A stretch of DNA of 64,000 bases from a virus. Every line of letters starts with the position of its first letter. Positions within the stretch are counted from its first letter, which is position 1. The translations under genes were made by a program, and so were the position numbers. The stretch spans positions 1 through 64,000 of the IMG/VR virus record IMGVR_UViG_3300046003_007892; one strand, given 5' to 3'. Shown in pieces: positions 10,191 to 45,474 of this stretch. Under the pieces are notes generated by a model, which saw only the letters and a program-made list of their open reading frames with translations, was not told the origin of the DNA and did no database searches.

Positions 10191-10667
10191 CTAAAGGCCA
10201 AAATGTTTCGGAAACAACGCGACAAGGTCTCGGGCCCAGTCCATGAGTTCTTGGTCGGAACCCCCAGCTTGCTGGGGCTCTAGCTTGACGATCTCTCCTC
10301 GATGCCCAATCCTCGGGTTGAGATGCGGAGCGATCTTGTTCGGACCCCACTCCGGGTCATTGAACTTTGATTGTGCGAACGCCTCCGGGTGAACACCGTT
10401 GATGTCTACGGCGAGACCAGCATCGTTGACGCACCAGATATGATCTACGTCACCATCCGGGCTCATCTCGGCATGGATGGGCCAGCCTGTTTTTTCATTT
10501 ACGGCCACGGCGAGGTAGCCGCATCCTCCGGTGCTGAAGGTTGAACGGACGAAGTTGTCGATGCCGTGCTCGGGCTTCCATTCGTCGTAGGTGGCCTCGT
10601 CGTCGCCATGGTCCATCCACGGTCGGGCGGCCTCCATGATCGAGCGCATATCGGGGAAACGAGCCAT
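10191..10667 (-). CDS. Late protein, CTS-like leader, Cys-His-Asp pattern
   Basis: 158 residues. The start is set by a TAAATA box ending 4 nt before the ATG at 10667. The N-terminus MARFPDMRSIME|AA has an I-x-E|A site like T4 prohead-protease targets. The middle has GGCGYLAVAV, DHIWCVND and AVDINGV, a Cys...His...Asp order typical of papain-fold or transglutaminase-like hydrolases and similar to 31728-32324. The enzymatic assignment is tentative. Confidence 0.75.
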   Translation of the reverse strand: MARFPDMRSIMEAARPWMDHGDDEATYDEWKPEHGIDNFVRSTFSTGGCGYLAVAVNEKTGWPIHAEMSPDGDVDHIWCVNDAGLAVDINGVHPEAFAQSKFNDPEWGPNKIAPHLNPRIGHRGEIVKLEPQQAGGSDQELMDWARDLVALFPKHFGL

Positions 10668-10671
10668 TCGA

Positions 10672-10677
10672 TATTTA
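10672..10677 (-). promoter_or_regulatory. Late-type TAAATA box
   Basis: Minus-strand ATAAATA, TCGA, then the ATG at 10667. Confidence 0.6.
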
Positions 10678-10744
10678 TTCGAATTCGGTGAACTAAAATA
10701 TTGCACGCCCGTTGGGAGTCCCCTTATGGTCTGAGGGTGAACTT

Positions 10745-10957
10745 ATGGAGTTTTTCACACAAATGACCGTTACCACCTACACCTCGGCCTCGCGCGGCGT
10801 CACCCTGACCATCGCGAACATGCCCACCCCGCACATCGAGAACGCCGTCGCCAAGATCAAGACGTCGGCCGCCACGCTGACGGAATCGCAGGTTGCCACC
10901 CTGGCCGCCCTGGAAACCGAACTGGGCACCCGCGACGACCGCACCGTCGCCGCTTAA
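10745..10957 (+). CDS. Small hypothetical protein
   Basis: 70 residues from the ATG at 10745, preceded by GAGGGTG. The composition is Thr/Ala-rich (IKTSAATLTESQVATLAALE), probably a helical hairpin. A strong terminator follows. Confidence 0.7.
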   Translation: MEFFTQMTVTTYTSASRGVTLTIANMPTPHIENAVAKIKTSAATLTESQVATLAALETELGTRDDRTVAA

Positions 10958-10988
10958 TCTACCCACCTCGCCTAATCGGGGTTCGACT

Positions 10989-11020
10989 AGGGCTCGCGGC
11001 TTCGGCTGCGGGCCCTTTTT
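10989..11020 (+). terminator. Rho-independent terminator
   Basis: GC-rich stem (AGGGCTCGCGGC / GCTGCGGGCCCT) around a TTCG loop, followed by TTTTT. Ends the 10745-10957 unit. Confidence 0.85.
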
Positions 11021-11022
11021 AC

Positions 11023-11050
11023 TTGACAAGGTTCGAGACCCTCCTATCTT
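11023..11050 (+). promoter_or_regulatory. Early-type promoter, N16 spacing
   Basis: TTGACA, 16 nt, TATCTT, then GCGGGG and the ATG at 11057. Transcription would start at or inside the start codon. Confidence 0.65.
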
Positions 11051-11056
11051 GCGGGG

Positions 11057-11212
11057 ATGACCGAGAACCTCACCTCCAAAGAACGTGTCGCCTTCCGGGC
11101 CGCCAAGGAAACCGTCGCGAGAACGCAGGCGATTCTGGCCCTGCGCACGGCCCGGAACAAGACCAACGTTTTCGCCGCGCGCGGAATGGCGTGGATGGAA
11201 CAAGCCCTGTGA
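11057..11212 (+). CDS. Small hypothetical protein
   Basis: 51 residues (MTENLTSKERVAFRAAKETV...), a basic Ala-rich helix. Supported by the promoter six bases upstream and the tight spacing to the next gene. Confidence 0.7.
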   Translation: MTENLTSKERVAFRAAKETVARTQAILALRTARNKTNVFAARGMAWMEQAL

Positions 11213-11217
11213 GGGGA

Positions 11218-11223
11218 TAAATA
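11218..11223 (+). promoter_or_regulatory. Late-type TAAATA box
   Basis: ATAAATA, CCGG, then the ATG at 11228. Confidence 0.6.
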
Positions 11224-11227
11224 CCGG

Positions 11228-16740: not shown

Positions 16741-17022
16741 ATGTTTCGTCCCCTACTCGACCGCGTCCTGGTCAAAACCGCTGACCCCGAATCCATCTCC
16801 AAGGGTGGCATCATCATCGCGGAGACCATTCAGGGCAAACCCCAAGAAGGCACCGTGGTCTCGACCGGCCCCGGCATCTACGAAGGCGGCGTCTTCAAAG
16901 AAATCTCCGTCAAGGCTGGCGACCGCGTGCTGTTCAACAAGCTCGCCGGTTCGGAAGTCAAGGTTGATGGCGACACCTTCCTGCTGATCGAAGACAAGCA
17001 AATTCTGGGCGTGCTGGCCTGA
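16741..17022 (+). CDS. groES: GroES-like co-chaperonin
   Basis: 93 residues, normal GroES length. It has the N-terminal strand PLLDRVLVKTAD, a mobile-loop segment around SKGGIIIAETIQGKPQEGTV, the GxV.S.GPG turn and the closing GDTFLLIEDKQILGVLA. It caps the chaperonin folding chamber. Phage versions (T4 gp31) adapt host GroEL to fold the major capsid protein; that role is inferred. TGGAG precedes the ATG. The TGA overlaps the sirtuin ATG. Confidence 0.93.
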   Translation: MFRPLLDRVLVKTADPESISKGGIIIAETIQGKPQEGTVVSTGPGIYEGGVFKEISVKAGDRVLFNKLAGSEVKVDGDTFLLIEDKQILGVLA

Positions 17023-17729
17023 TGCCCAACCTCACCATCCTGACCGGCGCAGGCATATCCGCCGAATCCGGCATCCAGACCTTCCGCGACGGTGGTGGGC
17101 TCTGGCATGAGCACGACGTCATGAAGGTCGCGAGCCTCAAGGGGTTCGAAGCCGAGCCCGATCTCGTGCATGCTTTCTACAACCAACGTCGTCAGGATGC
17201 GCAGACCGTTCATCCCAACGACGCCCATCATGCCCTTGCCGAACTCGAAGAGGCGTGGGCAGACAAGGGTGCCTTCCTGGTCATCACACAGAACGTCGAT
17301 GATCTTCATCGCCGCGCCGGAACCAAGAACATCGCCCACATCCACGGAGAGATCGACAAGGTGATCTGTCGTTCCTGCGAACACGCCGAGGTGACGACCA
17401 ACGATGTCGATGCCTCAACTGTGTGCGGGAAGTGCGGGGCCGCGACGATGCGGCCGGACGTCGTCTGGTTCGGGGAGATGCCCAAGTATCTCAACGAGAT
17501 CGAGACCGTTCTGGACAACACAGACATCTACGTCACCATCGGGACGTCAGGCTCCGTCATGCCCGCCAGCCTTTTCGCCGAGGTGGTCAAGCAGGCCAAC
17601 CCGGCTGCTGAGGTGATCGAGGTCAACATCCAGCCCACCAACGCCCCCGTCTATACCAAGGTCATTGATGGTACTGCCAGTCGAGGGGTTCGAGAACTGG
17701 TTGACTATCTGGTAGAAAAATACGCATAG
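17022..17729 (+). CDS. Sir2 / CobB-like NAD-dependent deacylase
   Basis: 235 residues, complete sirtuin. NAD site LTGAGISAESGIQTFRD; TQNVDDLH; catalytic His in HIHGE; zinc site CRSC...CGKC; GTSGSVMPA near the end. FYNQRR supplies the Tyr-x-x-Arg that marks class III (CobB/SIRT5-type) enzymes able to remove acyl groups such as succinyl. It consumes NAD+ and releases nicotinamide, which the salvage genes at 46-54 kb could reuse. Coupled to groES by ATGA. Confidence 0.95.
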   Translation: MPNLTILTGAGISAESGIQTFRDGGGLWHEHDVMKVASLKGFEAEPDLVHAFYNQRRQDAQTVHPNDAHHALAELEEAWADKGAFLVITQNVDDLHRRAGTKNIAHIHGEIDKVICRSCEHAEVTTNDVDASTVCGKCGAATMRPDVVWFGEMPKYLNEIETVLDNTDIYVTIGTSGSVMPASLFAEVVKQANPAAEVIEVNIQPTNAPVYTKVIDGTASRGVRELVDYLVEKYA

Positions 17730-18087: not shown

Positions 18088-18536
18088 TCTACTTCCTCGA
18101 CTGCGAGTTCGACTCCTTTGGTGGTCGTCTCCTCTCAATAGCGTTGGTGCGCCAGGACGGCCTACCCCTCTCTCTGGTTATCTGGAAAGAGGGCGAGACC
18201 CTGACGCCGTGGGTGACCACAAACGTTGCCCCGCATTTCTATGCTGACCCGCACAGCCGTGAAGTCGAGCGCGCCGACGTCCCCAACGAGCTTGCCAAGT
18301 TTCTGCGTGGTGATTTCCAGCCCGTCATCGTTTCCGACTGGCCGGACGACATCCGGTATTTCTGCGAGTGCACGATGGTGGCGCCGGGGCAGATGATCGC
18401 CCTGAGCGACATCACTTTCCGAATGCTGAAGGTGCAGAGCTACCCGACGACCGTGCCGGGCGCAGTTCAGCACAATGCCTACTGGGACGCCATGGCGTTG
18501 CGGGAAGCCCTCGCTCCTGAGGGCGGCTGGGCTTAA
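18084..18536 (+). CDS. DEDD-type 3'-5' exonuclease-like protein
   Basis: 150 residues from a TTG overlapping the previous stop. Motif I FLDCEFDSFGGRLLSIALV, a middle acidic motif VSDWPDDIRYFCE and a final HNAYWDAMALREAL match the DEDDh exonuclease order, like the compact Rv2179c-type exoribonucleases. It should act on RNA or DNA 3' ends with two metal ions. Confidence 0.8.
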   Translation: MIYFLDCEFDSFGGRLLSIALVRQDGLPLSLVIWKEGETLTPWVTTNVAPHFYADPHSREVERADVPNELAKFLRGDFQPVIVSDWPDDIRYFCECTMVAPGQMIALSDITFRMLKVQSYPTTVPGAVQHNAYWDAMALREALAPEGGWA

Positions 18537-18895
18537 ACGTTCTTCAGTCCGGGCGTCGGGCCGTTAACGGAACGGAACTCCGCGTCATCGGCAGGAATCG
18601 AGCCATCGGCATCGGTGTGAACGAGCATCAGGCGACGCATGACCTTCATCGTATCCTGCTGACCCATACGGACCAGCGACACGAAGGCTTTGCCCATCTG
18701 TTCGAGTTCCCAACGGTTGAGTTGCTCTTCGTTGTTCTGGACGATCTTGCGCCAACCACGCAGGAAATATTCCTCGTTGTCGATAGTGGGGAAGAACCCC
18801 ATTACGATACGGGCGTTGGTGGAGCTACGACCTTCGAGGGGCTCCCCCAGGACGTTGCCTTCAGCTTCGTTGATGATGTCGCGCATGGTCTTCAT
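18533..18895 (-). CDS. Late protein with CTS-like leader
   Basis: 120 residues from the ATG at 18895, 5 nt after a TAAATA box. The leader MKTMRDIINE|AE closely resembles the T4 internal-protein leader MKTYQEFIAE|A and has an I-x-E|A cleavage site. The rest (RIVMGFFPTIDNEEYFLRGW, helical C-terminus) is unassigned. Predicted to be packaged in the head. Confidence 0.75.
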   Translation of the reverse strand: MKTMRDIINEAEGNVLGEPLEGRSSTNARIVMGFFPTIDNEEYFLRGWRKIVQNNEEQLNRWELEQMGKAFVSLVRMGQQDTMKVMRRLMLVHTDADGSIPADDAEFRSVNGPTPGLKNV

Positions 18896-18900
18896 GAACA

Positions 18901-18906
18901 TATTTA
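18901..18906 (-). promoter_or_regulatory. Late-type TAAATA box
   Basis: Minus-strand CTAAATA, 5 nt before the ATG at 18895; its plus-strand partner lies 4 nt away. Confidence 0.65.
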
Positions 18907-18910
18907 GCGA

Positions 18911-18916
18911 TAAATA
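18911..18916 (+). promoter_or_regulatory. Late-type TAAATA box
   Basis: ATAAATA, CCGAA, then the ATG at 18922. Back-to-back with the minus-strand box at 18901-18906. Confidence 0.65.
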
Positions 18917-18921
18917 CCGAA

Positions 18922-19698
18922 ATGAAAACCTATGCCGATATCCTGGTCGAAAGCATCATGGGCACCACGCCCGAATACACGCCTCGCTACCGTGAGGTGC
19001 CAGTCTACGACAAAAACGGTACGCTGATCGGGTTCAACAATGTGACGCCGTTCTCGTCTCACGCCGCAGAGGTTTTGCGTCACAACGACATCGATTTCAC
19101 GAAACAGTATATGAACCAGGGTGGCACCCTGACCTATTTCAATCTTGGCCCGAACAACATCGCGACGTTCTCCCCTGACCTGGAAACCATCTCGCTGCTG
19201 ACGCGCCCGGATTCCTACCAGCCCCTGAACGAGATGGAGGCACCGGCCGATTTTGATAGCTGGTTCGGTGGCAGCGCAGCCACCGAGCCGAACGGTGCGC
19301 CGATGGTTTTCTATCACGGTGTCCCCCACGTCTACGCTGGCTTCGACCGGTTCTCCGATCATCCCATGGGCCATTTCTTCACCTCCGACCCCGACTACGC
19401 TCAGCGGTATGCGGAGAAGCCGATCAACGATGACGAAGAAGATGACACGGGTGCCATCTATCCCGTCTACCTCTCGCTCAAGAACCCGCTCGTCATTAAC
19501 CCTGAGGACAAGGACGGCGTTGGTGACTATTCCCATCACAAGCACACCGCCGAAGACATCCGGGCGGGCGGCTATGACGGGACGATGATTCGTTATGCGG
19601 ATGGTGAGGTCGAGGCCATGGTGATCGACGCGGACCAGATAGTCTCGGCCGTGTCCGCGCGCAAGCCCACCAACCCGTCTCCGATGTCGCGTGGTTGA
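18922..19698 (+). CDS. ADP-ribosyltransferase-like late protein with CTS-like leader
   Basis: 258 residues. The leader MKTYADILVE|S is nearly the T4 capsid-targeting leader MKTYQEFIAE. The C-terminal half (about 130-250) reads PMVFYHGVPHVYAGFDRF, GHFFTSDPDYAQRYAE, PVYLSLKNPLVI, GYDGTMI and VIDADQIVSA. This is the YHGT...FFTxxPxxAxxYA...NPL...GYDG order of ART-superfamily domains found in phages. It probably uses NAD+ to modify a host target. The catalytic Glu is not certain from sequence. Confidence 0.78.
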   Translation: MKTYADILVESIMGTTPEYTPRYREVPVYDKNGTLIGFNNVTPFSSHAAEVLRHNDIDFTKQYMNQGGTLTYFNLGPNNIATFSPDLETISLLTRPDSYQPLNEMEAPADFDSWFGGSAATEPNGAPMVFYHGVPHVYAGFDRFSDHPMGHFFTSDPDYAQRYAEKPINDDEEDDTGAIYPVYLSLKNPLVINPEDKDGVGDYSHHKHTAEDIRAGGYDGTMIRYADGEVEAMVIDADQIVSAVSARKPTNPSPMSRG

Positions 19699-19871: not shown

Positions 19872-20738
19872 CTATCCCGGACCTACGCCCAGCCGCCGTG
19901 CAAGTTCGACGGTGAACTTCTTGACCGCAACGCGGTATCTCTTGGGCGCGTGTTTCTTCAGGTCTCTGAAGAAATCAGGCGTAGTGAATGGTCCCAAATA
20001 GAACCCCTTTCGCTGCGATAGACCGCAATACTGCTTCACTGAACTAGACAGAGACGGTTTACGGCTGCCCTCACTGGCGAGGTCCCATAACTGCAAGAAC
20101 TCCTCAACGCAGGAACCGATAGTGGGGTCGAACTCAATGGGCGACGTGTGGTAGTCGGGGCCAAAATCGCTGTATTTCTTTTTTCTTTTTTCCTGATCAG
20201 CATGCTGGATGATCTCCGTCTGGACCATGTGCCGAAGCTCGTGGACGAGCGTCGAGGTGATTTCGTTCAGGGCATACTCAATGTCCTGAGCATGGGTGCG
20301 ATGCGTGGGATAGTCACGGAGGAACGGCGGAGCCAGCGGATAAAGGGACAGGACTTTCTTCTCGTCCTCCCATGAGCCCCTGAGACGTTCCTGGTCGGTC
20401 CAGTAAAGCAAAAGGGTGATACCCTTAACTTGTGGCGTGCGGCTGGTGTAGGACGCCCCCATGCCATCTGTGTCCATCGGGATGCGGTAGGCGGTCACGT
20501 TGCTGGACGGTTCGAACGGACTCTTGGTGACAACAACGCCGAACTCGTCACACAGGGCCTTCAGCGTAGCTTTTTGCTCAGCCACAACATCGGCCCGGTG
20601 GCTTCGTTTTCGGAGTTGGTCGCTCGCCCACCAGAGCATATCTCGGCGGAGAAGATGGGTGATTCGCGCGAGCATTTTGGGCGGAACCTCGACCAGCCCC
20701 TCCGTCAGCCGCATGGCGTTCATCTCGTCTATCCGCAT
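19872..20738 (-). CDS. HExxH metallopeptidase-like late protein with CTS-like leader
   Basis: 288 residues. The leader MRIDEMNAMRLTE|GLVEVPP has an L-x-E|G site, and a TAAATA box ends 4 nt before the ATG. Residues ~165-185 hold ITSTLVHELRHMVQTE, an HExxH zinc-binding motif in a helix. A downstream acidic third ligand (for example in GSCVEEFLQLWDLASEG) is plausible. Substrate unknown; proposed packaged zincin-type hydrolase. Confidence 0.78.
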   Translation of the reverse strand: MRIDEMNAMRLTEGLVEVPPKMLARITHLLRRDMLWWASDQLRKRSHRADVVAEQKATLKALCDEFGVVVTKSPFEPSSNVTAYRIPMDTDGMGASYTSRTPQVKGITLLLYWTDQERLRGSWEDEKKVLSLYPLAPPFLRDYPTHRTHAQDIEYALNEITSTLVHELRHMVQTEIIQHADQEKRKKKYSDFGPDYHTSPIEFDPTIGSCVEEFLQLWDLASEGSRKPSLSSSVKQYCGLSQRKGFYLGPFTTPDFFRDLKKHAPKRYRVAVKKFTVELARRLGVGPG

Positions 20739-20742
20739 CCCA

Positions 20743-20748
20743 TATTTA
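20743..20748 (-). promoter_or_regulatory. Late-type TAAATA box
   Basis: Minus-strand CTAAATA, TGGG, then the ATG at 20738. Confidence 0.6.
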
Positions 20749-24386: not shown

Positions 24387-24392
24387 TAAATA
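24387..24392 (+). promoter_or_regulatory. Late-type TAAATA box
   Basis: CTAAATA, TGAG, then the ATG at 24397. Confidence 0.6.
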
Positions 24393-24396
24393 TGAG

Positions 24397-24825
24397 ATGC
24401 GAAATCTCATCCTCCTGGTTGAATACTACGAGGCGTCCATGACGCCAGAACAACTTGAGGCCCAAGCGCGAGGCTACGAGGGCGCCATTCAGAACGAACG
24501 CGCTTCCGATTTCGACTGGAAATTTGTTCCAGACTTCCCGCTTGAGAAAGTGCAGTTCCAACCCGGCGACGGTGGGACGACCCCGGAAGGATGGGCGGAC
24601 TTTCTCCGCGACGAAATCAAGATGTGGGACGAAGAAGAAGGTCAACCAGATCGCTTCAACGATCTCCTTGAAGAGCCCATCCGGGAAGCAATCATCGTCC
24701 ATCTCGGTGAGGACGGCATGGGCTATTTGTGGGACGGCTGCCACCGCACAGGGGCAACCGCGACGAAGGGGCTGCCGACCATTGCTGCCATCGTCGGCAC
24801 CCGCAAATCCGATTTCTGGACCTAG
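24397..24825 (+). CDS. Late protein with CTS-like leader and ParB-like fold motif
   Basis: 142 residues. Leader MRNLILLVE|YYEAS with an L-x-E site. The C-terminal third (EAIIVHLGEDGMGYLWDGCH followed by RTGATATKGLPTIAAIVG) resembles the G.H(R).A....G...IPA.V core of ParB/sulfiredoxin-like domains, which in some relatives bind nucleotides or ATP. The exact activity cannot be read. Confidence 0.72.
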   Translation: MRNLILLVEYYEASMTPEQLEAQARGYEGAIQNERASDFDWKFVPDFPLEKVQFQPGDGGTTPEGWADFLRDEIKMWDEEEGQPDRFNDLLEEPIREAIIVHLGEDGMGYLWDGCHRTGATATKGLPTIAAIVGTRKSDFWT

Positions 24826-26643: not shown

Positions 26644-26719
26644 TGGCGTCCCGAGCAGGGCTCGAACCTGCGACCTCATCCTTCGGAGGGATGTGCTCTT
26701 CCAACTGAGCTACCGGGAC
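26644..26719 (-). tRNA. tRNA-Arg(CCG)
   Basis: Full cloverleaf: acceptor GTCCCGG/TCGGGAC-type pairing, D arm GCTC/GAGC, anticodon loop CTCCGAA, T arm GCAGG TTCGAGC CCTGC, encoded CCA. Decodes CGG. Confidence 0.92.
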
Positions 26720-26743
26720 TTGAGGCGTCACCCTCGAAAAGAA

Positions 26744-26819
26744 TGGATGGGGCGGTAGGGGTCGAACCCACAACCGACGCATTCAAAGTGCGTTGCTCTA
26801 CCAGTTAAGCTACGCCCCA
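26744..26819 (-). tRNA. tRNA-Gln(TTG)
   Basis: Acceptor TGGGGCG/CGCCCCA, anticodon stem ACGCA/TGCGT with loop CTTTGAA, T loop TTCGACC, encoded CCA. Discriminator reads T, unusual for Gln. Confidence 0.9.
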
Positions 26820-26843
26820 CCAGGGGTGGTCCTGAGCACTTTG

Positions 26844-26916
26844 CTGGGGAGATAGGTCTCGAACCTATAACCGCCCGATTCAGAGTCGGGTGCTCCACCA
26901 GTTAAGCTACTCCCCA
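26844..26916 (-). tRNA. tRNA-Gln(CTG)
   Basis: Acceptor TGGGGAG/CTCCCCA, anticodon stem CCCGA/TCGGG, loop CTCTGAA. CCA is not encoded. The gene is bracketed by a ~20-bp inverted repeat that continues the acceptor stem outward (GCTGGGG...CCCCAGC). Confidence 0.9.
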
Positions 26917-26937
26917 GCAAAATGCTCAGGACCGAAA

Positions 26938-27012
26938 TGGCGATCACGACGGGTTTCGAACCCGTGGCCTGCGCATCGACAGTGCGCTGCTCTACCCCTG
27001 AGCTACGTGACC
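26938..27012 (-). tRNA. tRNA-Asp(GTC), copy 1
   Basis: Acceptor GGTCACG/CGTGATC, anticodon stem GCGCA/TGCGC, loop CTGTCGA, discriminator G, encoded CCA. Confidence 0.92.
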
Positions 27013-27013
27013 G

Positions 27014-27089
27014 TGGCGACCTTGACGAGGTTCGAACTCGCGACATTCGGATAGACAATCCGACGCTCTACCAGTTGAGCTACAAGGCC
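27014..27089 (-). tRNA. tRNA-Asp(GTC), copy 2
   Basis: Acceptor GGCCTTG/CAAGGTC, anticodon stem TCGGA/TCCGA, loop TTGTCTA with T at position 37, where a purine is normal. Discriminator G, CCA encoded. Not a recent duplicate of copy 1. Confidence 0.87.
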
Positions 27090-30313: not shown

Positions 30314-30835
30314 TTAGCGCGCCCAACAGGCGTCCACGAAGGCAACGTCATCAGCCATCAAGGGTTTCTGGTCCTCGCCGAGCGGGATAGCTCGAACTTG
30401 AACGGGACCCATGAACCTCTGGACGGCAGCCGCGATCTTGGCGGTCATGGCTTCCAGGGGTTCGCCATACTGCTCCTGAACGGCCAGCCGAATGTCGTCA
30501 TCCGACATCCCCTCGTAGTCACCGTCCGTCATCCAAATCTCGCCGTAGCAATGCGTGCGGGACATCTGGAGCCGGTAGGCTTCGTTGTGGATGTCGAGAC
30601 CGGCGTGATCGCAAATGACGTCATGGGCAAGACAGCACCCGTCGCCGATGACGATCTGACCGTCTTTCATCAGAACGCCAGCGGCGCCCTGTGGATATCG
30701 GGCATTCCATTCCGCCTTGGTCGGCGCGAGGCAGATGACGGTCTTGCGATTATCACCGGGATTCAGGATTCGGTCCTGGTACACGATAGCCTCGCCAAGG
30801 ATACTCTCGACGATGATGTCAGCGTAGGTTTTCAT
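30314..30835 (-). CDS. Late protein with CTS-like leader
   Basis: 173 residues. Leader MKTYADIIVE|SILGE is almost identical to that of the ART-like protein 18922-19698, although the bodies are unrelated, which argues for a shared targeting signal. The body has GDGCCLAHDVICDHAGLDIH, rich in Cys/His and possibly metal-binding. ATG overlaps the upstream TAA (TAAATG), so it is co-expressed with the metallopeptidase-like gene. Confidence 0.76.
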   Translation of the reverse strand: MKTYADIIVESILGEAIVYQDRILNPGDNRKTVICLAPTKAEWNARYPQGAAGVLMKDGQIVIGDGCCLAHDVICDHAGLDIHNEAYRLQMSRTHCYGEIWMTDGDYEGMSDDDIRLAVQEQYGEPLEAMTAKIAAAVQRFMGPVQVRAIPLGEDQKPLMADDVAFVDACWAR

Positions 30836-31692
30836 TTATTGGCCACGATGTGCTCGACGAAAGAAGTTATATGGGGCTTGAGCGGAGTCCCCAGTACCCA
30901 AGAAGCGAAGCAGTCGGCCCAGAACTCACCAAAGTTGTTTCTCGAATAGTCTCTCGGGAATGCGCCGGGGTCATTTTGAAGACACCAGTTGTATCGGTCG
31001 TTCAGGTGCACTCGGCAACCAGGGAAGCGGTACTCAAAACGATGGCCGAATTCGTGAATGATAGCGTGGATAAGGAACGGGTCGTTGGTGCTCGGCACAA
31101 GCCAAACATTATCTCCGGCGTAGTCGTAGTAACCGCCAACGCCGTGCCGGGTATGCTTGACACTAACGTCAACCGACATGAGCCAGCCCACCCCCTTGGC
31201 CTCCATGTAGCGACGCGCCGCATTGAAGCATCGCACCATCGCGTTTTTGTACGACTCGGAAATGCCATCACCATAGAAGATTATCTTAGTCTGACCAACG
31301 TCCACGGTCTCGACTTCTACGTTTGGGTCATTCGGGTCCAGGTCATTGAAGTAATCTGTGCCCTTAACGTATGGGAAGTTTACGGCCGGACGGTTCTTGC
31401 CTCCACGGCTCGTGATCTCGCGTCCCGCGCTATTCTGACCAGTGTTCTGACCAGTGTTCTGACCAACGTTGGAATAGTTTGAACCGCCATATTCTACGCC
31501 GTTGACAGTGACTGACCCCAACGCGCCGATAGATATGTTTACTCCGCCAACCTGGAACGATTGAACACTGCTTTCGCCACCAGTATGAGCGTATTCATTG
31601 AGGTGCTCGTCTGTGCAACAGCTACAACGAATTTCCGGTGCCTGGGACGTTTCGACGATGGCTAGGGATTTTCGTATATCGGAGTTGTCCAT
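30832..31692 (-). CDS. HExxH metallopeptidase-like late protein with CTS-like leader
   Basis: 286 residues. Leader MDNSDIRKSLAIVE|TSQAP (I-x-E). A Cys-rich CSCC segment follows, then a low-complexity GQNTGQNTGQN repeat (about 75-90). LIHAIIHEFGHRFEYRF (about 215) is a canonical HExxH zincin helix, and FGEFWADCFASWV downstream supplies a Glu third ligand. It probably cleaves a host or virion protein or peptide. Confidence 0.82.
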   Translation of the reverse strand: MDNSDIRKSLAIVETSQAPEIRCSCCTDEHLNEYAHTGGESSVQSFQVGGVNISIGALGSVTVNGVEYGGSNYSNVGQNTGQNTGQNSAGREITSRGGKNRPAVNFPYVKGTDYFNDLDPNDPNVEVETVDVGQTKIIFYGDGISESYKNAMVRCFNAARRYMEAKGVGWLMSVDVSVKHTRHGVGGYYDYAGDNVWLVPSTNDPFLIHAIIHEFGHRFEYRFPGCRVHLNDRYNWCLQNDPGAFPRDYSRNNFGEFWADCFASWVLGTPLKPHITSFVEHIVANK

Positions 31693-31696
31693 CCGA

Positions 31697-31702
31697 TATT
31701 TA
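31697..31702 (-). promoter_or_regulatory. Late-type TAAATA box
   Basis: Minus-strand ATAAATA, TCGG, then the ATG at 31692; paired with the plus box at 31718. Confidence 0.65.
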
Positions 31703-31717
31703 TCACGGCTTGGTGGC

Positions 31718-31723
31718 TAAATA
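31718..31723 (+). promoter_or_regulatory. Late-type TAAATA box
   Basis: CTAAATA, TTCG, then the ATG at 31728. Confidence 0.65.
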
Positions 31724-31727
31724 TTCG

Positions 31728-32324
31728 ATGCGAGAGTTCCTCAACATCCTGGCCGAAAACAGAGCCCAACCCTTTCCTGGTCTCACCCCGGAGTTCCTCG
31801 CCAAGCTGCGCGAGATTCGACACCAGTGCCGCATCGACAACGGCGGGGGCGGGTCATGCCACCTCGTCTCGGAATGGCTCGATGACGAATACGGATGGGA
31901 CCGTGTCAGCGGCACCTACACGTCCGCCGACTATCAGGACGTCGCTATCACGGGCCACCTCTGGAACCTCTTGCCCGATAACAGCATACTCGATGCAACG
32001 GCCGATCAGACCGGCGAGGGGCACGACATCCGAGTCATCCACCCCTCTGACCCCGAGTACCATCGCTATCGCCCCGAGTGGTATCCAGATTTCCATCCCG
32101 ATCACGAGGATTTCGAGAAATTTTGGGCTGAATATCAGCCGCTCAGTTTCCCCCACTACGACGGGAGCAAATATCCGAAGTTTTCTGGCGAGGACGACTA
32201 CACGGGTCAGAACCGTCTGCGGGACGAGCGCGGTGACTATTGGTGGTCAACCGACAAGGAACAACTGGCTCGCTATCACGACGAGCAGCAGCGCGAATAC
32301 GATTGGAAGCGCGGACAGTTCTAG
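31728..32324 (+). CDS. Late protein with CTS-like leader and Cys-His-Asp pattern
   Basis: 198 residues. Leader MREFLNILAE|NRAQ (L-x-E). GGGGSCHLVSEWLDDEYG, GHLWNLLPDNSILDATADQ give Cys, His and Asp in the order of papain-like or transglutaminase-like enzymes, the same arrangement as 10191-10667. The C-terminus is charged and Trp/Tyr-rich. Likely a packaged thiol hydrolase; not proven. Confidence 0.75.
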   Translation: MREFLNILAENRAQPFPGLTPEFLAKLREIRHQCRIDNGGGGSCHLVSEWLDDEYGWDRVSGTYTSADYQDVAITGHLWNLLPDNSILDATADQTGEGHDIRVIHPSDPEYHRYRPEWYPDFHPDHEDFEKFWAEYQPLSFPHYDGSKYPKFSGEDDYTGQNRLRDERGDYWWSTDKEQLARYHDEQQREYDWKRGQF

Positions 32325-35310: not shown

Positions 35311-35316
35311 TAAATA
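35311..35316 (+). promoter_or_regulatory. Late-type TAAATA box
   Basis: GTAAATA, GGGT, then the ATG at 35321. It abuts the minus-strand early -35 element of the divergent operon. Confidence 0.6.
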
Positions 35317-35320
35317 GGGT

Positions 35321-35884
35321 ATGCGCTACTTCAACATCTTTGAATCAAAATCGGCTCCGCTCTACCACGGAACCGATCTCCTGTTGTTGGCTGCCATCGT
35401 GCAGGGGAACTTTCTCCACAAAGGCATCAACTGGGGGAGGCCTGGGGAACCCAACGGGCCTCGCCTGACCCGCAACTACGGCACGGCATACTCCTTTGCC
35501 AACGACAACGAGTTTGGCATGGGCGGGGTCCTAGTGCTCGACCAGATGAAGATCGCGCAGCGGTATCGCATTCAACCCTACGCCGACGTGGATGCCTCTG
35601 GAGAGCGTTGGGTTAACGAATTTGAAGAGGTGCCGATCACGAGTGAGATCGGCCCGCTGAATCGATATCTGATTTCGATCAATGCTGACCCGGCCCACAT
35701 CCAGACGGTGATGGCGGACGAAGACCTCATGGGGCACCGCTGCGCGGAAGCCAGCCATTGCATTTCGGAAACGTTCGCGACCTACGAGGAGTGCCACGAC
35801 GCCCTCGATCATCTCCTGAAACACCCGATGCTCAACCGGATGGTCCCGCGAGGCCGAGATACGCCGCTGGGTTGGCGGGTCTAA
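35321..35884 (+). CDS. ADP-ribosyltransferase-like late protein with CTS-like leader
   Basis: 187 residues. Leader MRYFNIFE|SK (I-x-E). APLYHGTDLLLLAAIVQGNF, RLTRNYGTAYSFAND and GGVLVLDQMKIAQRY resemble the YHGT...SRxxxxAxxFA...GGVxxLD order of phage ART-fold domains, and FEEVPITSEIGPLNRYL could hold the acidic catalytic residue. Probably NAD+-using; target unknown. Confidence 0.72.
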   Translation: MRYFNIFESKSAPLYHGTDLLLLAAIVQGNFLHKGINWGRPGEPNGPRLTRNYGTAYSFANDNEFGMGGVLVLDQMKIAQRYRIQPYADVDASGERWVNEFEEVPITSEIGPLNRYLISINADPAHIQTVMADEDLMGHRCAEASHCISETFATYEECHDALDHLLKHPMLNRMVPRGRDTPLGWRV

Positions 35885-38642: not shown

Positions 38643-39119
38643 TTAGGGTTTGCGACGGTCGTTGGGGTTACGGTCGAAGTACGGGCTCAAAGCCCCGTCA
38701 GTCGGCGAATACTTGTCGAAATCGAGATGGCCGTCACGACGATACCAAGGACCCATGGAGCAATAGTCCCAAATTTGGGCGGTGGTGTGATTTAGGTCCC
38801 TCGCCATGCCTTTGCACATGTCGAATTCTTGTCGTTGACTGTAACGGCTATTTCCGTCTTCGTCCGTTTCAAAGGCCCGCACCAGCCTGACGAAGTCCGG
38901 GTGGTTCTCGATGTCGGGCATGTAACGGCTGAAGTTGTAACGTTGACCCCAATCGTTGCTGTTGTCTTCGAAATCGTTTCTGAGCGTATCAGCCGAATTC
39001 GGAAACTGATCAGACTGCTTCTTCGTAGTCCGAATGCCAAAGACTTGGTCAGTGCCGAAACCCAAGAATTCGTTCAGCTTGGTTTCCGTGATGATGTTCA
39101 TATATTTGCGAATCGACAT
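38643..39119 (-). CDS. Late protein with CTS-like leader
   Basis: 158 residues. Leader MSIRKYMNIITE|TKLNEFLGF has an I-x-E|T site. The body is hydrophilic with many Asp/Asn/Arg and no recognisable family (YNFSRYMPDIENHPDFVRLV). Its late box is leadered rather than leaderless. Monocistronic, closed by a terminator. Confidence 0.75.
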   Translation of the reverse strand: MSIRKYMNIITETKLNEFLGFGTDQVFGIRTTKKQSDQFPNSADTLRNDFEDNSNDWGQRYNFSRYMPDIENHPDFVRLVRAFETDEDGNSRYSQRQEFDMCKGMARDLNHTTAQIWDYCSMGPWYRRDGHLDFDKYSPTDGALSPYFDRNPNDRRKP

Positions 39120-40740: not shown

Positions 40741-40829
40741 TGGCTCCTAGTTGAGGAATCGAACCTCACTCGTTAGCCTCGCGGCCTACAGGGTAACAAC
40801 CTGCCCGCACACCTTGTGCGTTACTAGGA
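40741..40829 (-). tRNA. tRNA-like, possible tRNA-Asn(GTT)
   Basis: Perfect acceptor TCCTAGT/ACTAGGA, T arm TGAGG TTCGATT CCTCA, discriminator G and CCA. The D arm is a tight CGCAC-AAGGT-GTGCG hairpin and the anticodon stem GCAGG TTGTTAC CCTGT is followed by a long extra arm, odd for Asn. Functional status uncertain. Confidence 0.5.
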
Positions 40830-40861
40830 ATAGCGATGCCCCGAAAGGCATCAGAGATAAG

Positions 40862-41173
40862 CTGGGCAGGCAGGGCTCGAACCTGCGACATTTCGATTCG
40901 CTTGTTCCCATGTTCCCATGGGCGCGGACTATATCTTCACCCTCAGCATTACCTGTTAGGGGCTGGGTGCTGTTTGGTCGTTATCGGGTTTGGCTCCCTC
41001 AGACCTAGTCTCTACACCTTCCGAAATACTCAAGGCCTTCTTTCGGCTCGGCTCGGGATTGCCACCGCCATTACGCGAGAGGTTTCCCCGAATTCTCCCA
41101 GATTTTCAACCTCAGTTTCCCGAGGAAGTGTCCATTGAACAGTCGAACGCTCTACCAACTGAGCTACAACCCA
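40862..41173 (-). tRNA. tRNA-Asn(GTT) interrupted by a group I intron
   Basis: 5' exon 41138-41173 (TGGGTTG TA GCTC...GAGC G TTCGA CTGTT) and 3' exon 40862-40898 (AA TCGAA ATGTC GCAGG TTCGAGC CCTGC CTGCCCA G). Joined they give loop CTGTTAA, anticodon GTT, stem TTCGA/TCGAA, discriminator G. CCA is not encoded. Flanks CAGAGATAAGCTGGG/CCCAGCTTATCTCTG extend the acceptor stem. Confidence 0.88.
40899..41137 (-). other. Group I intron in tRNA-Asn
   Basis: 239 nt on the minus strand, inserted between anticodon position 36 and base 37. The conserved 3' core AAGATATAGTCC is present, as are an R-like GTAGAGACTAGG and a Q-like GGCAATCCCGAGCC. The exon ends in T (TGTT pairs with GACA, putting T-G at the splice site) and the intron ends in G. 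Too short for a homing-nuclease gene. Confidence 0.88.
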
Positions 41174-41250
41174 GCTTATCTCTGACTTGGCGTCCCCCCT
41201 CCCGCCATCACCTGTTGGTGTCTGCGCGGTCGGAGGAACATGGTTGCCCC

Positions 41251-41306
41251 CGACCATGAGAAACCTTGCTCTCATGGTCGGGAGGGTTTTCTTGCCCTCC
41301 CCCGTA
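41251..41306 (-). terminator. Paired hairpins, probable terminator
   Basis: GGGAGGGCAAGAAAACCCTCCC and CGACCATGAGA/TCTCATGGTCG (11 bp, perfect) lie just after the stop of 41327-41557. Confidence 0.6.
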
Positions 41307-41326
41307 AAGGGGGTCCGGCACGAAGA

Positions 41327-41557
41327 TTAAACGTCGGTCGCCTTCCTGTGATTCTTGAAATCGCGTCCGCGTTCCTGAATGACGGTTGCGTCGAGTTCGG
41401 TTCCGAAGGCCTCAAGGACCGTCCAACCTCGGCTCCACTTGCCGTCTTCCTTGAGATCAACGAGGCCGTCCTGGATGGCCCGTTCAGACGGAATCCAGGA
41501 GACTTGACGTGCGCCGTTGCGCTCCAGTGTGCATTGTTTTACAGTCTCCCTTCTCAT
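41327..41557 (-). CDS. Small conserved phage protein
   Basis: 76 residues (MRRETVKQCTLERNGARQVS followed by WIPSERAIQDGLVDL). K..LER......SWIP...A..G..V.L...GW.V resembles a short hypothetical protein common in phages of Proteobacteria. Embedded in the tRNA cluster on the same strand. Role unknown. Confidence 0.75.
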   Translation of the reverse strand: MRRETVKQCTLERNGARQVSWIPSERAIQDGLVDLKEDGKWSRGWTVLEAFGTELDATVIQERGRDFKNHRKATDV

Positions 41558-41601
41558 CTGATAGTCCTTTCGTAAGACTTCACCACCATGGTGAAGAATA
41601 G

Positions 41602-41676
41602 TGGAGGCGCAGGGTGGTCTCGAACCACCGACATGCAGAATATGAATCTGCCGCTCTACCCCTGAGCTACTGCGCC
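41602..41676 (-). tRNA. tRNA-Met(CAT) or elongator/Ile2
   Basis: Acceptor GGCGCAG/CTGCGCC, anticodon stem GCAGA/TCTGC, loop TTCATAT, T arm GGTGG/CCACC, CCA encoded. CAT could be Met or a lysidine-modified Ile; discriminator T. Confidence 0.88.
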
Positions 41677-41729
41677 GTATTCCTTTTGCTGCCGCCCCAG
41701 CATCGAAACACTGGGACGGCGGCGAAACT

Positions 41730-41893
41730 TGGTGGACGTGCCAGGAATCGAACCCGGACAGTTGAGTTTCACCCCAACCGCATTACCCGGACGGACCCCG
41801 CCTCTGACTGTCTCCGGGTTCGCGACCCCTCGGACATCCTCGGACGAGGCACTCCGCCTCTATCAAACTCAACGGGTATCCCCGTCTACGCCC
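41730..41893 (-). ncRNA. tRNA-like element with expanded middle
   Basis: Acceptor GGGCGTA/CACGTCC with CCA and T arm CCGGG TTCGATT CCTGG. The middle is ~115 nt long, bounded by GTTGAGTTT/AAACTCAAC, which could be an anticodon stem. No group I core seen. A second T-arm-like TCGCGAA lies at ~41818. Confidence 0.45.
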
Positions 41894-41898
41894 GTAAA

Positions 41899-41974
41899 TG
41901 GTAGGCCCGGACGGGTTCGAACCGCCGACATTCGGTGTGTAAAACCGACGCTCTCCCAACTGAGCTACAGGCCC
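41899..41974 (-). tRNA. tRNA-Val(TAC)
   Basis: Acceptor GGGCCTG/CGGGCCT, anticodon stem TCGGT/ACCGA, loop TTTACAC, T arm GGCGG/CCGTC, CCA encoded. Confidence 0.9.
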
Positions 41975-42087
41975 TCAGGTCACCCTGAAAATCTCCCAGT
42001 GATTACCCCACCGCTTGGTCGGCAACCTCCGCCGCTGGGAGCGGCCTCTCTGACTGTCGCCATCCTGGCGCCGGTCGTATTCTTGTG

Positions 42088-42164
42088 TGGTCGGCGAAGG
42101 TGGGTTCGAACCACCGACCTTTCGATTATCGGTCGAATGCTCTAACCAACTGAGCTACTCGCCG
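42088..42164 (-). tRNA. tRNA-Ile(GAT), copy 1
   Basis: Acceptor CGGCGAG/TTCGCCG, anticodon stem TTCGA/TCGAA, loop CCGATAA: position 33 is C, not the near-universal T. CCA encoded. Flanked by TTGTGTG/CACACAA. Confidence 0.83.
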
Positions 42165-42205
42165 TCACACAAACTGAGCTTTGATGCTCCTGACCTCGCC
42201 ACGTC

Positions 42206-42268
42206 TGGCTGTCCGGCGAGGGTTTCGAACCCTCCGCGCCTTGCCTGTCGGCCACCTAGGGACCAGAC
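42206..42268 (-). ncRNA. Truncated tRNA-like element
   Basis: 63 nt: acceptor GTCTGGT/GCCGGAC, T arm GAGGG TTCGAAA CCCTC, end AGCCA. Only ~27 nt lie between, with one GCC-GACA-GGC hairpin, so there is no normal D or anticodon arm. Confidence 0.5.
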
Positions 42269-42452
42269 AGTCAGGAACATCTCTGCTAAGAACCCTTCCG
42301 CTTCTTCCCTCGCAGCTTACGAGGGCGTCCCCTTGGGATTCGAAATGGCGGGGCGCCCGGATTTGACCCGGAGATCGTTCGCTTCAAGCGGGGCATCGCA
42401 ACCTAGCCCCTAAGCTTGTGACCTTCCCCCTACGGGGCACACACCGATGAAA

Positions 42453-42527
42453 TGGTAGTCGAGGGTGGGATTGAACCACCGACCTTCGCCTTATCAAGAC
42501 GCTGCTCTCCCGCTGAGCTACTCGACC
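42453..42527 (-). tRNA. tRNA-Ile(GAT), copy 2
   Basis: Acceptor GGTCGAG/CTCGACT, anticodon stem GCGTC/GGCGA (one mismatch), loop TTGATAA, T arm GGTGG TTCAATC CCACC, CCA encoded. Confidence 0.85.
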
Positions 42528-42532
42528 GCACG

Positions 42533-42607
42533 TGGTAGGTCTGGAGGGTTTCGCACCCCCGACCTTTGCAATGTCAATGCAACGCTCTCCTCCTGAGCTA
42601 CAGACCC
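42533..42607 (-). tRNA. tRNA-Val(GAC)
   Basis: Acceptor GGGTCTG/CAGACCT, anticodon stem TTGCA/TGCAA, loop TTGACAT. The T loop reads TGCGAAA (T55 replaced by G). CCA encoded; flanks GTGGTA/TACCAC. Confidence 0.85.
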
Positions 42608-42702
42608 ATACCACATGGAAACTATCCCCCGACGACCCACAGTGCAGGCCGTCTATTCAAGACCCCGAGGGATGGGGTCCCGGAAGCGCGAGGCTTCCGA
42701 AA

Positions 42703-42777
42703 TGGTGGCCACAGGTGGTCTCGAACCACCGACACCCGCATTTTCAGTGCGGTGCTCTACCCCTGAGCTACATGGCC
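42703..42777 (-). tRNA. tRNA-Phe(GAA)
   Basis: Acceptor GGCCATG/TGTGGCC, anticodon stem CCGCA/TGCGG, loop CTGAAAA, T arm GGTGG/CCACC, discriminator A, CCA encoded. Confidence 0.92.
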
Positions 42778-42835
42778 GTAGACATAATCCTGGTCACCCT
42801 TACCGCTCACCATTGGGCCTCCACCTGGGGGCTTC

Positions 42836-43060
42836 AACGCCAAGCCGGGGGATTGAACCCCGACAGATCATGTCCGTATCGGAACACGCCAACAGACCAC
42901 CAGCGAAGAAGGGATTCGAACCCTTCTGCCTCCCCCTTCGCCACCGTTACTGCCGAAACAGCCAAGGCATCGAACCTTGTCGGGTTTGGGTGCGCCGTGC
43001 AACGCTCTTGGTCAGTTCAAGGCCTTTGGACCGCCTGTAGGCGATCTGTTGGCGAGTTCC
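42836..43060 (-). ncRNA. Run of tRNA-like fragments
   Basis: Three T arms without cloverleaves: CGGGG TTCAATC CCCCG (42846-42862), AAGGG TTCGAAT CCCTT (42909-42925) and CAAGG TTCGATG CCTTG (42964-42980). The middle one, 42901-42942, is a 42-nt acceptor-T minihelix with stem GGCGAAG/CTTCGCT. Confidence 0.48.
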
Positions 43061-43082
43061 GATAGTCTTCATATGTATTCAC

Positions 43083-43166
43083 TGGTCGGCAGAGTAGGAT
43101 TCGAACCTACGCGCCTTTCAGAGCGGGGTTACAGTCCGCCGGTTTCAACCACTCACCCATCTGCCG
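43083..43166 (-). tRNA. tRNA-Tyr(GTA)
   Basis: Acceptor CGGCAGA/TCTGCCG, anticodon loop CTGTAAC on stem GCGG/CCGC, extra arm as expected for Tyr, T arm GTAGG/CCTAC, A discriminator, CCA. Flanks TATGTATTCACT/AGTGAATACATA. Confidence 0.87.
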
Positions 43167-43187
43167 ATAAGTGAATACATACTGCGT

Positions 43188-43262
43188 TGGCAGGAGAGGA
43201 GGGATTTGAACCCCCGACCTTCGGTTTTGGAGACCGCTGCTCTACCACTGAGCTACACTCCT
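43188..43262 (-). tRNA. tRNA-Trp(CCA)
   Basis: Acceptor AGGAGTG/CTCTCCT (one mismatch), anticodon stem GCGGT/ACCGA, loop CTCCAAA, G discriminator, CCA. First gene of cluster 3 in transcription order. Confidence 0.9.
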
Positions 43263-43320
43263 ATGTCAACGCATCGTCTTCGTCTTGTTCTTTCGTTCTG
43301 TTCTCCGTTTCGATGACTGC

Positions 43321-43349
43321 AACCTAGTCGAGGTGTTTGGGGCAGTCAA
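43321..43349 (-). promoter_or_regulatory. Sigma-70-type promoter of tRNA cluster 3
   Basis: Minus strand TTGACT (43344-43349), 17 nt, TAGGTT (43321-43326), about 60 bp before tRNA-Trp. An A/T-rich stretch with ACTCAAC direct repeats lies upstream and could be an UP element. The rest of 43263-43510 holds no gene. Confidence 0.68.
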
Positions 43350-43513
43350 CAACTTTTTTCGATTTTGTTGAATATTTTCGAGGACTTACTCAACTGTACT
43401 CAACGTATACTTCGTGCGTTCTTCGCCTTTACTTGGCGGATACTTGCTGGTTCTTTGTGACTTCAAACTGCCAAGGCATTTGTTGTCGGGGTCCCTGTTG
43501 GGTTTCGGCCATA

Positions 43514-43549
43514 GAAAAAGGCCGCTCCGGTTTTCCGGGGCGGCCTTTG
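43514..43549. terminator. Bidirectional terminator
   Basis: AAAAAGGCCGCTCCGG/CCGGGGCGGCCTTTG; symmetrical A and T tracts. Closes the small gene 43573-43668. Confidence 0.85.
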
Positions 43550-43572
43550 TATCTCTGGAGCGGGGTGGGTGT

Positions 43573-43668
43573 TTAGATCGACACCCCATCACGTCCATGC
43601 ACAAAAGCCGCGCCCGGAATATTCCAGACGACGTTGTTGTTCACAAACATGATATAGTTCTTGCTCAT
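43573..43668 (-). CDS. 31-residue late protein
   Basis: MSKNYIMFVNNNVVWNIPGA then AFVHGRDGVSI. Supported by a TAAATA box 6 nt upstream and a terminator downstream. Function unknown. Confidence 0.65.
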   Translation of the reverse strand: MSKNYIMFVNNNVVWNIPGAAFVHGRDGVSI

Positions 43669-43674
43669 CACTCT

Positions 43675-43680
43675 TATTTA
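43675..43680 (-). promoter_or_regulatory. Late-type TAAATA box
   Basis: Minus-strand CTAAATA, AGAGTG, then the ATG at 43668. Confidence 0.6.
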
Positions 43681-43703
43681 GCAAACTGGCTCGCGGCAGT
43701 CAA

Positions 43704-44216
43704 TTAAAAACGTCCAAAATCGTAATTTTCTTGCGATTTCATATATCTGGCTGCGCTGATGGCCTCTCTGGTGCCGGAATAGGTGTAGGTCCCCCGTCTG
43801 GTCACGAAGCTGAGTTGGCGTTCGAACGACGAGGGGTCGATGGTGTATTGCGGAATGATCATGACGTAGGGACAGACCTGGAAACCCACGCCAAGCATCA
43901 GGTTGTAGTCTCGCTTAAGTTCGGCCCCGAGTTCGTAGACCATGTTGCGAAGGATGTCGTAGTCGTATTCGGGCCGGTTCCGTCGCGGTCCAAGGAGATC
44001 GTAGTCGATGCTAAACCGGCAAGCGAGAGGTCTTGTGCACGCCTCGATGACTGAGCGGCGCACGTTCTTGACGGGCGCGGTCATGATGAAGTCGGCATGC
44101 GGGACGAGTTCGGGATAAACGTCGAGGACGCCGAGGGTGAGTTCGCGAGCCAGTTTGACCAGATAGGGGTCGTGGTTAGCGATTTGATCACAGTTCTGAA
44201 CTAGCTGGTGCTGCAT
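43704..44216 (-). CDS. Hypothetical protein
   Basis: 170 residues. DYDILRNMVYELGAELKRDY and CPYVMIIPQYTIDPSSFERQ give an alpha/beta protein of unknown family. No promoter recognised. Confidence 0.68.
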   Translation of the reverse strand: MQHQLVQNCDQIANHDPYLVKLARELTLGVLDVYPELVPHADFIMTAPVKNVRRSVIEACTRPLACRFSIDYDLLGPRRNRPEYDYDILRNMVYELGAELKRDYNLMLGVGFQVCPYVMIIPQYTIDPSSFERQLSFVTRRGTYTYSGTREAISAARYMKSQENYDFGRF

Positions 44217-44253
44217 CTGATAAGAATACCAGAGCGGCCATCGCGAACCCTAA

Positions 44254-45474
44254 TTATAGAGCAATGGCTCCATTGCGGTCGAACGCCTGAACGATGGTGA
44301 CCTCCATGGGCCCGCCTTTGAGAATGAACTCGTGCTCGTGGTTGAACGCGTTGTCGAGTTCCAGATAGTCGAGCCCGCAGATAATCTGATCGGGCTGAGC
44401 GGTGATCTGGAGGACGACGCCGAACTCACCATCGATCTCGGAATCCTTCCAACGGTTCTGGCTCATGATCTGGCCCATGAAGTTGTCGTCTCCGACGTTG
44501 GCGTTCCTGGCGAAACCATCGGCGACGTATTGCTCGGTCGTCCAGCTTGACGGCCGACCCCACGATATCGACAGCGTGTGGTTGCCCGTCTCGACAGCCT
44601 GCGCGAAATTGTTGTGCGCATCCGAGAAGAGCAGACCCCGATACAGGGTGATGGGCTGGGTCGGCCGAACCGGGAGGGCGAGGAGTTCGTCGATGTAGGA
44701 CTGATGGAGCGGCCACACCTTATTGTTCTTCGCCCATTTCACCACGGCGGTCTTGAGGATTTTCGTCAGTCGGGGCTGCCGGGCTTCCGTAAGGCTCTCG
44801 TCCAGATTTTCGTCGGGGTCATAGGAGATTTTCTCCGCCGTCCATGAGGCGAGCTTGGATTGGAAGATCACACCACGGGGTGCCGACAACCGGCTCGGGT
44901 CATGGAGGTCGTTGAACCAGACACCATCCACGCCCATGACGTCTTCGGCGTAGACGGTCAGGATGAGATCGAGGGGCGAGGTGTCGATGCGGGTCTGCAT
45001 GCAGCGATCTGCGAGTTTCTGGGTCCCGGTCATCCCCGTGGGGATTTCCTTGATGATGATGTCCTCGTTGTATTCGGGGTCCGACTCGGCCTCGGCCTCT
45101 TCGCGGGTATCGAAGACGAAGGCGACTCGGCCATCCATCTCCTCGTCATACCAGGAGACCTGATACTGGGCCTTGGCCTCCGCGTATCCGTTCTCGATTG
45201 CCCATTGCCGAATCTGCGCCTCTTGCCTCTTGCCCACCTTGTGGGCGTCGAGGAAGACGTTGCCGGGCTTGGTCATCTCATAGGTGTCGCCGCCCACGAA
45301 GCCCCGCGCGATTCTCCGCCATGCGTTGGGATGAAGGGAAACAGAGAGGCCCGCACCCTCGTAGGAATCCGCGCGCTTGTCAGTGGCCGTCATGGAGCCG
45401 ACGTGCCAGAGTTTACGGAACGTGCGGGTCTTCAGCGGGGCAGCGGTCTCGAAGAGGAAGGCGGCATAATCCAT
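44254..45474 (-). CDS. Alt-like mono-ADP-ribosyltransferase with CTS-like leader
   Basis: 406 residues. Leader MDYAAFLFE|TAAP (L-x-E). The C-terminal ~150 residues hold the R-S-E core of arginine-type ARTs: PITLYRGLLFSDA, then LSISWGRPSSWTTEQYVADG (S-x-T-type strand), then NAFNHEHEFILKGG, an E-x-E-type motif comparable with EMEVILPRG of T4 Alt. The N-terminal half has a possible second fold. T4 Alt is packaged and modifies host RNA polymerase on entry; a like role is inferred. Confidence 0.82.
   Translation of the reverse strand: MDYAAFLFETAAPLKTRTFRKLWHVGSMTATDKRADSYEGAGLSVSLHPNAWRRIARGFVGGDTYEMTKPGNVFLDAHKVGKRQEAQIRQWAIENGYAEAKAQYQVSWYDEEMDGRVAFVFDTREEAEAESDPEYNEDIIIKEIPTGMTGTQKLADRCMQTRIDTSPLDLILTVYAEDVMGVDGVWFNDLHDPSRLSAPRGVIFQSKLASWTAEKISYDPDENLDESLTEARQPRLTKILKTAVVKWAKNNKVWPLHQSYIDELLALPVRPTQPITLYRGLLFSDAHNNFAQAVETGNHTLSISWGRPSSWTTEQYVADGFARNANVGDDNFMGQIMSQNRWKDSEIDGEFGVVLQITAQPDQIICGLDYLELDNAFNHEHEFILKGGPMEVTIVQAFDRNGAIAL

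Follow-up and report, generated by a model that had tools for sequence, protein, structure and literature searches.

The window analysed in this study comprises bases 1-64000 of a linear 240,363-base virus record (IMG/VR record IMGVR_UViG_3300046003_007892). It contains twelve genes whose products start with a short leader ending in leucine or isoleucine, any residue and glutamate ([LI]xE), which the initial annotation took for capsid-targeting sequences of the phage T4 kind. The record is a partial genome from which the whole head module is absent; the same virus is also represented in a second assembly, by a 79-kb contig that overlaps the record. The baseplate wedge protein (911-4249) shares 40-43% identity with its counterparts in Agrobacterium phage Atu_ph07 and Sinorhizobium phage Phosso, and more distantly matches Rak2-like jumbo myoviruses. 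A megablast search of the window against phages matched nothing.

Gene calls were made over the whole 240-kb record, and every listed start was then read. All twelve N-termini translate as the initial annotation had written them, from the starts given in Table 1. In the whole record, about 42 proteins present a leader of the form M[RK]x(2-9)[LI]xE followed by S, A, T or G; about 30 of them lie beyond the listed twelve, among them (with a slash for the predicted cut) MRTYIDILME/S, MKTYFEIVAE/S, MRDLIDLVE/A, MRHLITLAE/S, MRQFISLAE/S, MRDLINLITE/S and MRRFIDLSE/K. The start of one gene was re-assigned, which yielded the leader MRLAEIME/R.

The enrichment was measured on a test set of 45 genes for which a TAAATA hexamer 4-5 nucleotides (nt) before the start was the sole criterion and the proteins were not inspected, with expected counts taken from within-protein shuffles. 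An [LI]xE with its glutamate at residues 8-14 is present in 28 of these 45 genes, against 3.1 expected (z=14.9). Control positions are at chance level, with 3 genes against 3.1 expected for a glutamate at 18-24 and 4 against 3.2 at 28-34. Across 41 aligned leaders, position P-2 is L or I in 39, six residues having been permitted, and P1' is S, A, T or G in 32. The nine leaders of ten residues are especially regular: position 4 is Y, F, L or M in eight, I or L occupies position 7 throughout and position 8 with one exception, and position 10 is E.

These are the positions that matter in T4, where the first ten residues of internal protein III (IPIII) are enough for packaging, targeting depends on residues 4 and 7 and processing on residues 8 and 10, and the prohead protease gp21 cuts after [LI]-x-E, the P1' residue being small (PMC9026906). 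The T4 proteins IPI, IPII and IPIII likewise carry a leader of about ten residues with hydrophobic positions 4 and 7 and a terminal [LI]xE, and have only this leader in common, their bodies being unrelated. The T4 start MKTYQEFIAE/A, quoted by the initial annotation, was read directly in IPII and IPIII, and three leaders of the present record also start with MKTY, e.g., MKTYADILVE/S.

Table 1. Leader genes of the window. Labels given "by eye" (ART-like, ParB-like, Cys-His; ART, ADP-ribosyltransferase) are motif-based only; CDS, coding sequence.
Span	CDS	Strand	Start	Leader	Body	TAAATA box and remarks
4716-5464	4727-5464	+	4727	MREHIDLVDQDFEDLVE/A	Hydrolase_2 (PF07486, E=4e-23)	4716-4721; weakest leader
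10191-10677	10191-10667	-	10667	MARFPDMRSIME/A	Cys-His type by eye	10672-10677
18533-18906	18533-18895	-	18895	MKTMRDIINE/A		18901-18906; divergent from gene 18922
18911-19698	18922-19698	+	18922	MKTYADILVE/S	ART-PolyVal ADP-ribosyltransferase (PF18760, E=3.4e-16)	18911-18916
19872-20748	19872-20738	-	20738	MRIDEMNAMRLTE/G	HExxH putative metallopeptidase (g025)	20743-20748
24387-24825	24397-24825	+	24397	MRNLILLVE/Y	ParB/sulfiredoxin-like motif by eye	24387-24392
30314-30835		-	30835	MKTYADIIVE/S	no assignment	no own box; downstream operon gene
30832-31702	30832-31692	-	31692	...IRKSLAIVE/T	HEFGH putative metallopeptidase	31697-31702; paralogue at L001:6168-6965
31718-32324	31728-32324	+	31728	MREFLNILAE/N	Cys-His type by eye	31718-31723; divergent from gene 31692
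35311-35884	35321-35884	+	35321	MRYFNIFE/S	LYHGT motif (ART-like by eye)	35311-35316
38643-39119		-	39119	MSIRKYMNIITE/T	no assignment	nearest box 25 nt upstream
44254-45484	44254-45474	-	45474	MDYAAFLFE/T	406 aa, C-terminal LYRGL ART-like motif by eye	45479-45484

Two statements of the initial annotation stand in part. The hydrolase at 4727 does carry a leader, but it fits less well than the others, with its glutamate at residue 17 followed by a hydrophobic stretch, and the protein may alternatively be a membrane-anchored endolysin. The bodies, described as unrelated, are mostly so according to phmmer, except for a few paralogue groups (g042/g103, g287/g288 and g109/g350/g353).

The TAAATA hexamer occurs 90 times in the record, counting both strands together. 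It lies 4-6 nt before the start of 33 genes as first called, and of 47 after the starts were re-examined. A Shine-Dalgarno sequence precedes 2 of these 47 genes, against 148 of 306 other genes. Upstream of the box, conservation is limited to the adjacent base, with no -35 element. A T4 late promoter is a single TATA box lying about one turn of the helix ahead of the position where transcription starts (PMC2988020); the present box resembles it in being a TAAATA without a -35 element, but the full TATAAATA is not kept. Given the box is 4-5 nt from the ATG and is read as in the T4 late promoter, transcription is predicted to start at or next to the ATG, and hence the mRNAs of these genes are probably leaderless. 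No match to the late sigma factor gp55 was found in the record. TAAATA-N4-ATG starts without Shine-Dalgarno sequences occur genome-wide, several of them in tight divergent pairs (in the window, for example, at 18901-18916 and 31697-31723), and are candidate leaderless bidirectional promoters of the T4 late type.

Box and leader are nevertheless separable. The operon genes g041, g252-255, g258 and g343 have the leader without the box, and g001 (a baseplate-region protein), g159, g245 and g259 have the box without the leader. The product of g159 is homologous to CBB_334, a virion protein of phage CBB detected by mass spectrometry (MS).

Homologues in relatives usually have a leader of their own. 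This is the case in G001 or G005 for g127, g129, g253, g255, g258 and the gene at 35321, whose homologue in G005 is tagged. In G005, box and tag are also combined, with 23 of 52 box genes tagged against 3.9 expected. In Atu_ph07, 27 of the 121 genes starting with M[RK] have the motif, against 9.1 expected. Tags in G001 and Atu_ph07 are mostly without a box.

Portal, scaffold, gp21 and major capsid protein are present in all six relatives that were compared. The gp21 family (PF03420) is found in Atu_ph07 and in 10 of 11 further relatives, a 310-kb record being the exception, and these proteases are suggested to be active because their DHP and GVSSRGSG blocks are conserved. In the major capsid protein of the six relatives, the conserved mature start, which is the predicted processing site, is directly preceded by L-x-E, and the next residue is S, T, A or N. 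Two genes downstream of gp21 in Atu_ph07 start with the leaders MDFRQIRALLE/G and MSIRKFLNIINE/S, the second of which differs little from the leader of window gene 39119. Small proteins resembling the mature N-terminal arm of the major capsid protein were also seen in G010 (L184:16840-17043) and in CBB (L229:13937-14095, CBB_293), with the arm directly after a leader-like segment (E/TATAGASASGNVAT and NE/NASSGATSAGG).

Evidence from virions is indirect and comes from phages CBB and Atu_ph07. The putative metallopeptidase g025 is homologous to CBB_322 and to CBB_321, whose leader is MRYNQLQE/A, and matches PHROG 18596, a virion structural protein (E=1.2e-6). CBB_322 was detected by MS in CBB virions with 30 unique peptides (PMC5259590). 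Leaders with a small P1' are enriched among MS-detected CBB proteins (6/52 versus 10/427, p=0.004). In Atu_ph07, CDS 53-63 are eleven adjacent genes with mostly MRWxQLTE-type leaders and no TAAATA box. They fall inside CDS 31-76, a cluster of 46 proteins of which 29 were detected in virions although only two had been predicted structural, a figure that holds at the level of the cluster (PMC6102473). The CDS numbering was verified via gp70, the primase/helicase. Several of the eleven tagged genes (L206, 39484-50592) show YRGM-type motifs, and their products are possibly ADP-ribosyltransferases.

As to the bodies, g024 (CDS 18922-19698) and g127 are ART-PolyVal ADP-ribosyltransferases, and g129 matches weakly. 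The HExxH motif is present in g025, g042/g103 and g136, with HEFGH invariant across g042/g103. The product of g354 weakly matches ParB-like profiles, and several further bodies have LYHGT or Cys-His motifs by eye. The leader proteins are 88-564 residues long, and none combines two unrelated domain families. A search of the 31692/L001 pair against solved structures returned nothing significant, and structure models of the 35321 and 31692 proteins, built on two-sequence alignments, had predicted local distance difference test (pLDDT) scores of 38 and 43, too poor to be used.

The match to the T4 capsid-targeting sequence, gp21 in the relatives, the signature at the capsid protein site and the leaders kept by homologues support the initial annotation, and we consider it likely that the leaders are capsid-targeting sequences of the T4 type, carried by a very large set of injected effectors. 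For this virus we infer its own protease as well as packaging, cleavage, injection and an effector role. The tagged proteins would be made late, many of them from TAAATA-only promoters 4 nt before the ATG. The hydrophobic tag would bind the prohead scaffold and bring the protein into the prohead, where a gp21-type protease would cleave after [LI]-x-E. Once released, the proteins would stay beside the DNA inside the head until, at the next infection, they pass into the new host. Their bodies (ADP-ribosyltransferases, metallopeptidases, ParB-like and Cys-His hydrolase-like proteins and many without assignment) would do their work within minutes of its onset, like T4 Alt and IPI-III. Given a packing tag of the T4 kind stands on at least 40 mostly unrelated proteins, a large enzyme set is probably delivered with the DNA, and the tagged proteins likely function as injected effectors.

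Several observations weigh against this interpretation. In the 240-kb record, gp21, scaffold, portal and major capsid protein are unmatched; the PF03420 search found none in the record or the overlapping 79-kb contig, and a scan of IMG/VR for the virus's own gp21 turned up only the relatives' copies. The virus's own protease could not be found because the head genes are missing from this fragment. A small number of leaders depart from the consensus, with the glutamate at 13-17 or with Y, K or Q at P1'. The enrichment among the MS-detected CBB proteins is a modest one for which more than one definition was tried, and core head proteins are among those counted. Finally, G009 and G010 show little or no leader enrichment, and the large repertoire is therefore lineage-specific.

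The alternative that survives best, although we regard it as unlikely, is that the tags are genuine but the proteins are mainly components of the prohead core or of DNA condensation, structural rather than injected. The gp22 of CBB starts with a similar leader (MSKLDKFLNE/S), and T4 IPIII also affects head assembly (PMC9026906). However, many bodies are of enzyme type (PF18760 ADP-ribosyltransferases, HExxH proteins) with no evident structural role, bodies differ between relatives, and the T4 internal proteins act in the host (PMC12373910).

It is considerably less probable that the tag is a signal for another site or protease, such as the membrane, the tail or other sorting. The leaders are short and amphipathic, the evidence for packaging is indirect, and other virion proteins of CBB have an N-terminal signature of a different kind, MLPFPR..EYGN. 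On the other hand, the leaders match those of T4 closely, down to E10 and the opening MKTY, and their L-x-E/small signature recurs at the capsid protein site of the relatives. The other CBB N-terminus, MLPF.R..EYGN/AN, stands on about nine MS-detected virion proteins with differing bodies (CBB_144, 247, 536, 537, 548, 549 and 551-553; L226, L228, L231, L232), and the question arises whether it is a separate sorting or assembly signal.

We give very little credence to the N-terminus being a by-product of initiation on leaderless late mRNAs, through a nucleotide constraint around TAAATA-N4-ATG. The box is strongly associated with leaders and Arg is often the second codon, but leader residues use varied synonymous codons (Arg CGC, CGA, AGA, CGT and CGG; Ser, five codons), and the tagged operon genes without a box, the box genes without a leader and the eleven-gene array of Atu_ph07 all speak against it. 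The codon and operon data together go most of the way to refuting such a nucleotide-level artefact. That the leaders are chance hits to a degenerate motif, selected by eye, has next to no probability: [LI]xE is short, and about 7% of N-termini have it with the glutamate at 8-14 by chance, but a chance origin is refuted by the leader-blind statistics and their flat controls.

If the leaders are capsid-targeting sequences, the mechanism is one already known from T4, and the differences lie elsewhere. This partial genome has about 42 such proteins, whereas T4 has 3 and at least 10 are reported across the T-even phages (PMC12373910); the bodies are often larger and of enzyme type; and the promoters are often of the leaderless type, without a Shine-Dalgarno sequence. 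As in the case of T4 Alt, head packaging and cleavage by a gp21-type protease are predicted for an ADP-ribosyltransferase, but several are present here, and their assignment is to ART-PolyVal (PF18760) and not to the Alt family. Packaged ADP-ribosyltransferases have already been described (PMC9503650, PMC5512222). The polyvalent proteins of phages and plasmids share domains with the present set (ART-PolyVal, putative peptidases), but are multidomain fusions, whereas the proteins here are mostly single-domain, each with its own tag (PMC5512222). The inner-body and ejection proteins of phiKZ and SPN3US are likewise numerous packed proteins of giant phages, matured by a gp21-related protease. The phiKZ cleavage motif has a small P-2 residue and the head proteins of both phages have long propeptides; here P-2 is L or I (39/41), and the lineage is different.

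Other genes of the window relate to nicotinamide adenine dinucleotide (NAD). Salvage genes at 47753-50280 and 53803-54852 (cytidylyltransferase/NUDIX, nicotinamide phosphoribosyltransferase and nicotinamide mononucleotide (NMN) adenylyltransferase) could supply NAD to the ADP-ribosyltransferases. GroES-like, Sir2-like and macro-domain-like genes, identified by eye and partly related to NAD or ADP-ribose, lie at 16741-17729 and 46875-47342. Sixteen predicted tRNA genes form two clusters (26644-27291 and 40741-43262).

With more than 40 separately tagged effectors, this may be among the largest known arsenals of injected proteins, with a portable cassette joined to many enzymes, a proposal to which we give even weight for and against. 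The same balance applies to the cassette itself (late box, 4-nt spacer, ATG and capsid tag), in which one short DNA element would serve as promoter, leaderless start and packaging signal. No description of this scale, enzyme content and pairing with apparently leaderless late promoters was found in the open-access literature searched. If the interpretation is true, sequence alone would suffice to recognise, by a ten-residue tag, the effectors that a whole class of giant phages injects, dozens of unannotated proteins would become candidate anti-defence or host-takeover enzymes of early infection, and many natural capsid-loading tags would be gained. Leaders of this type are also present in Atu_ph07, a relative that has been isolated.

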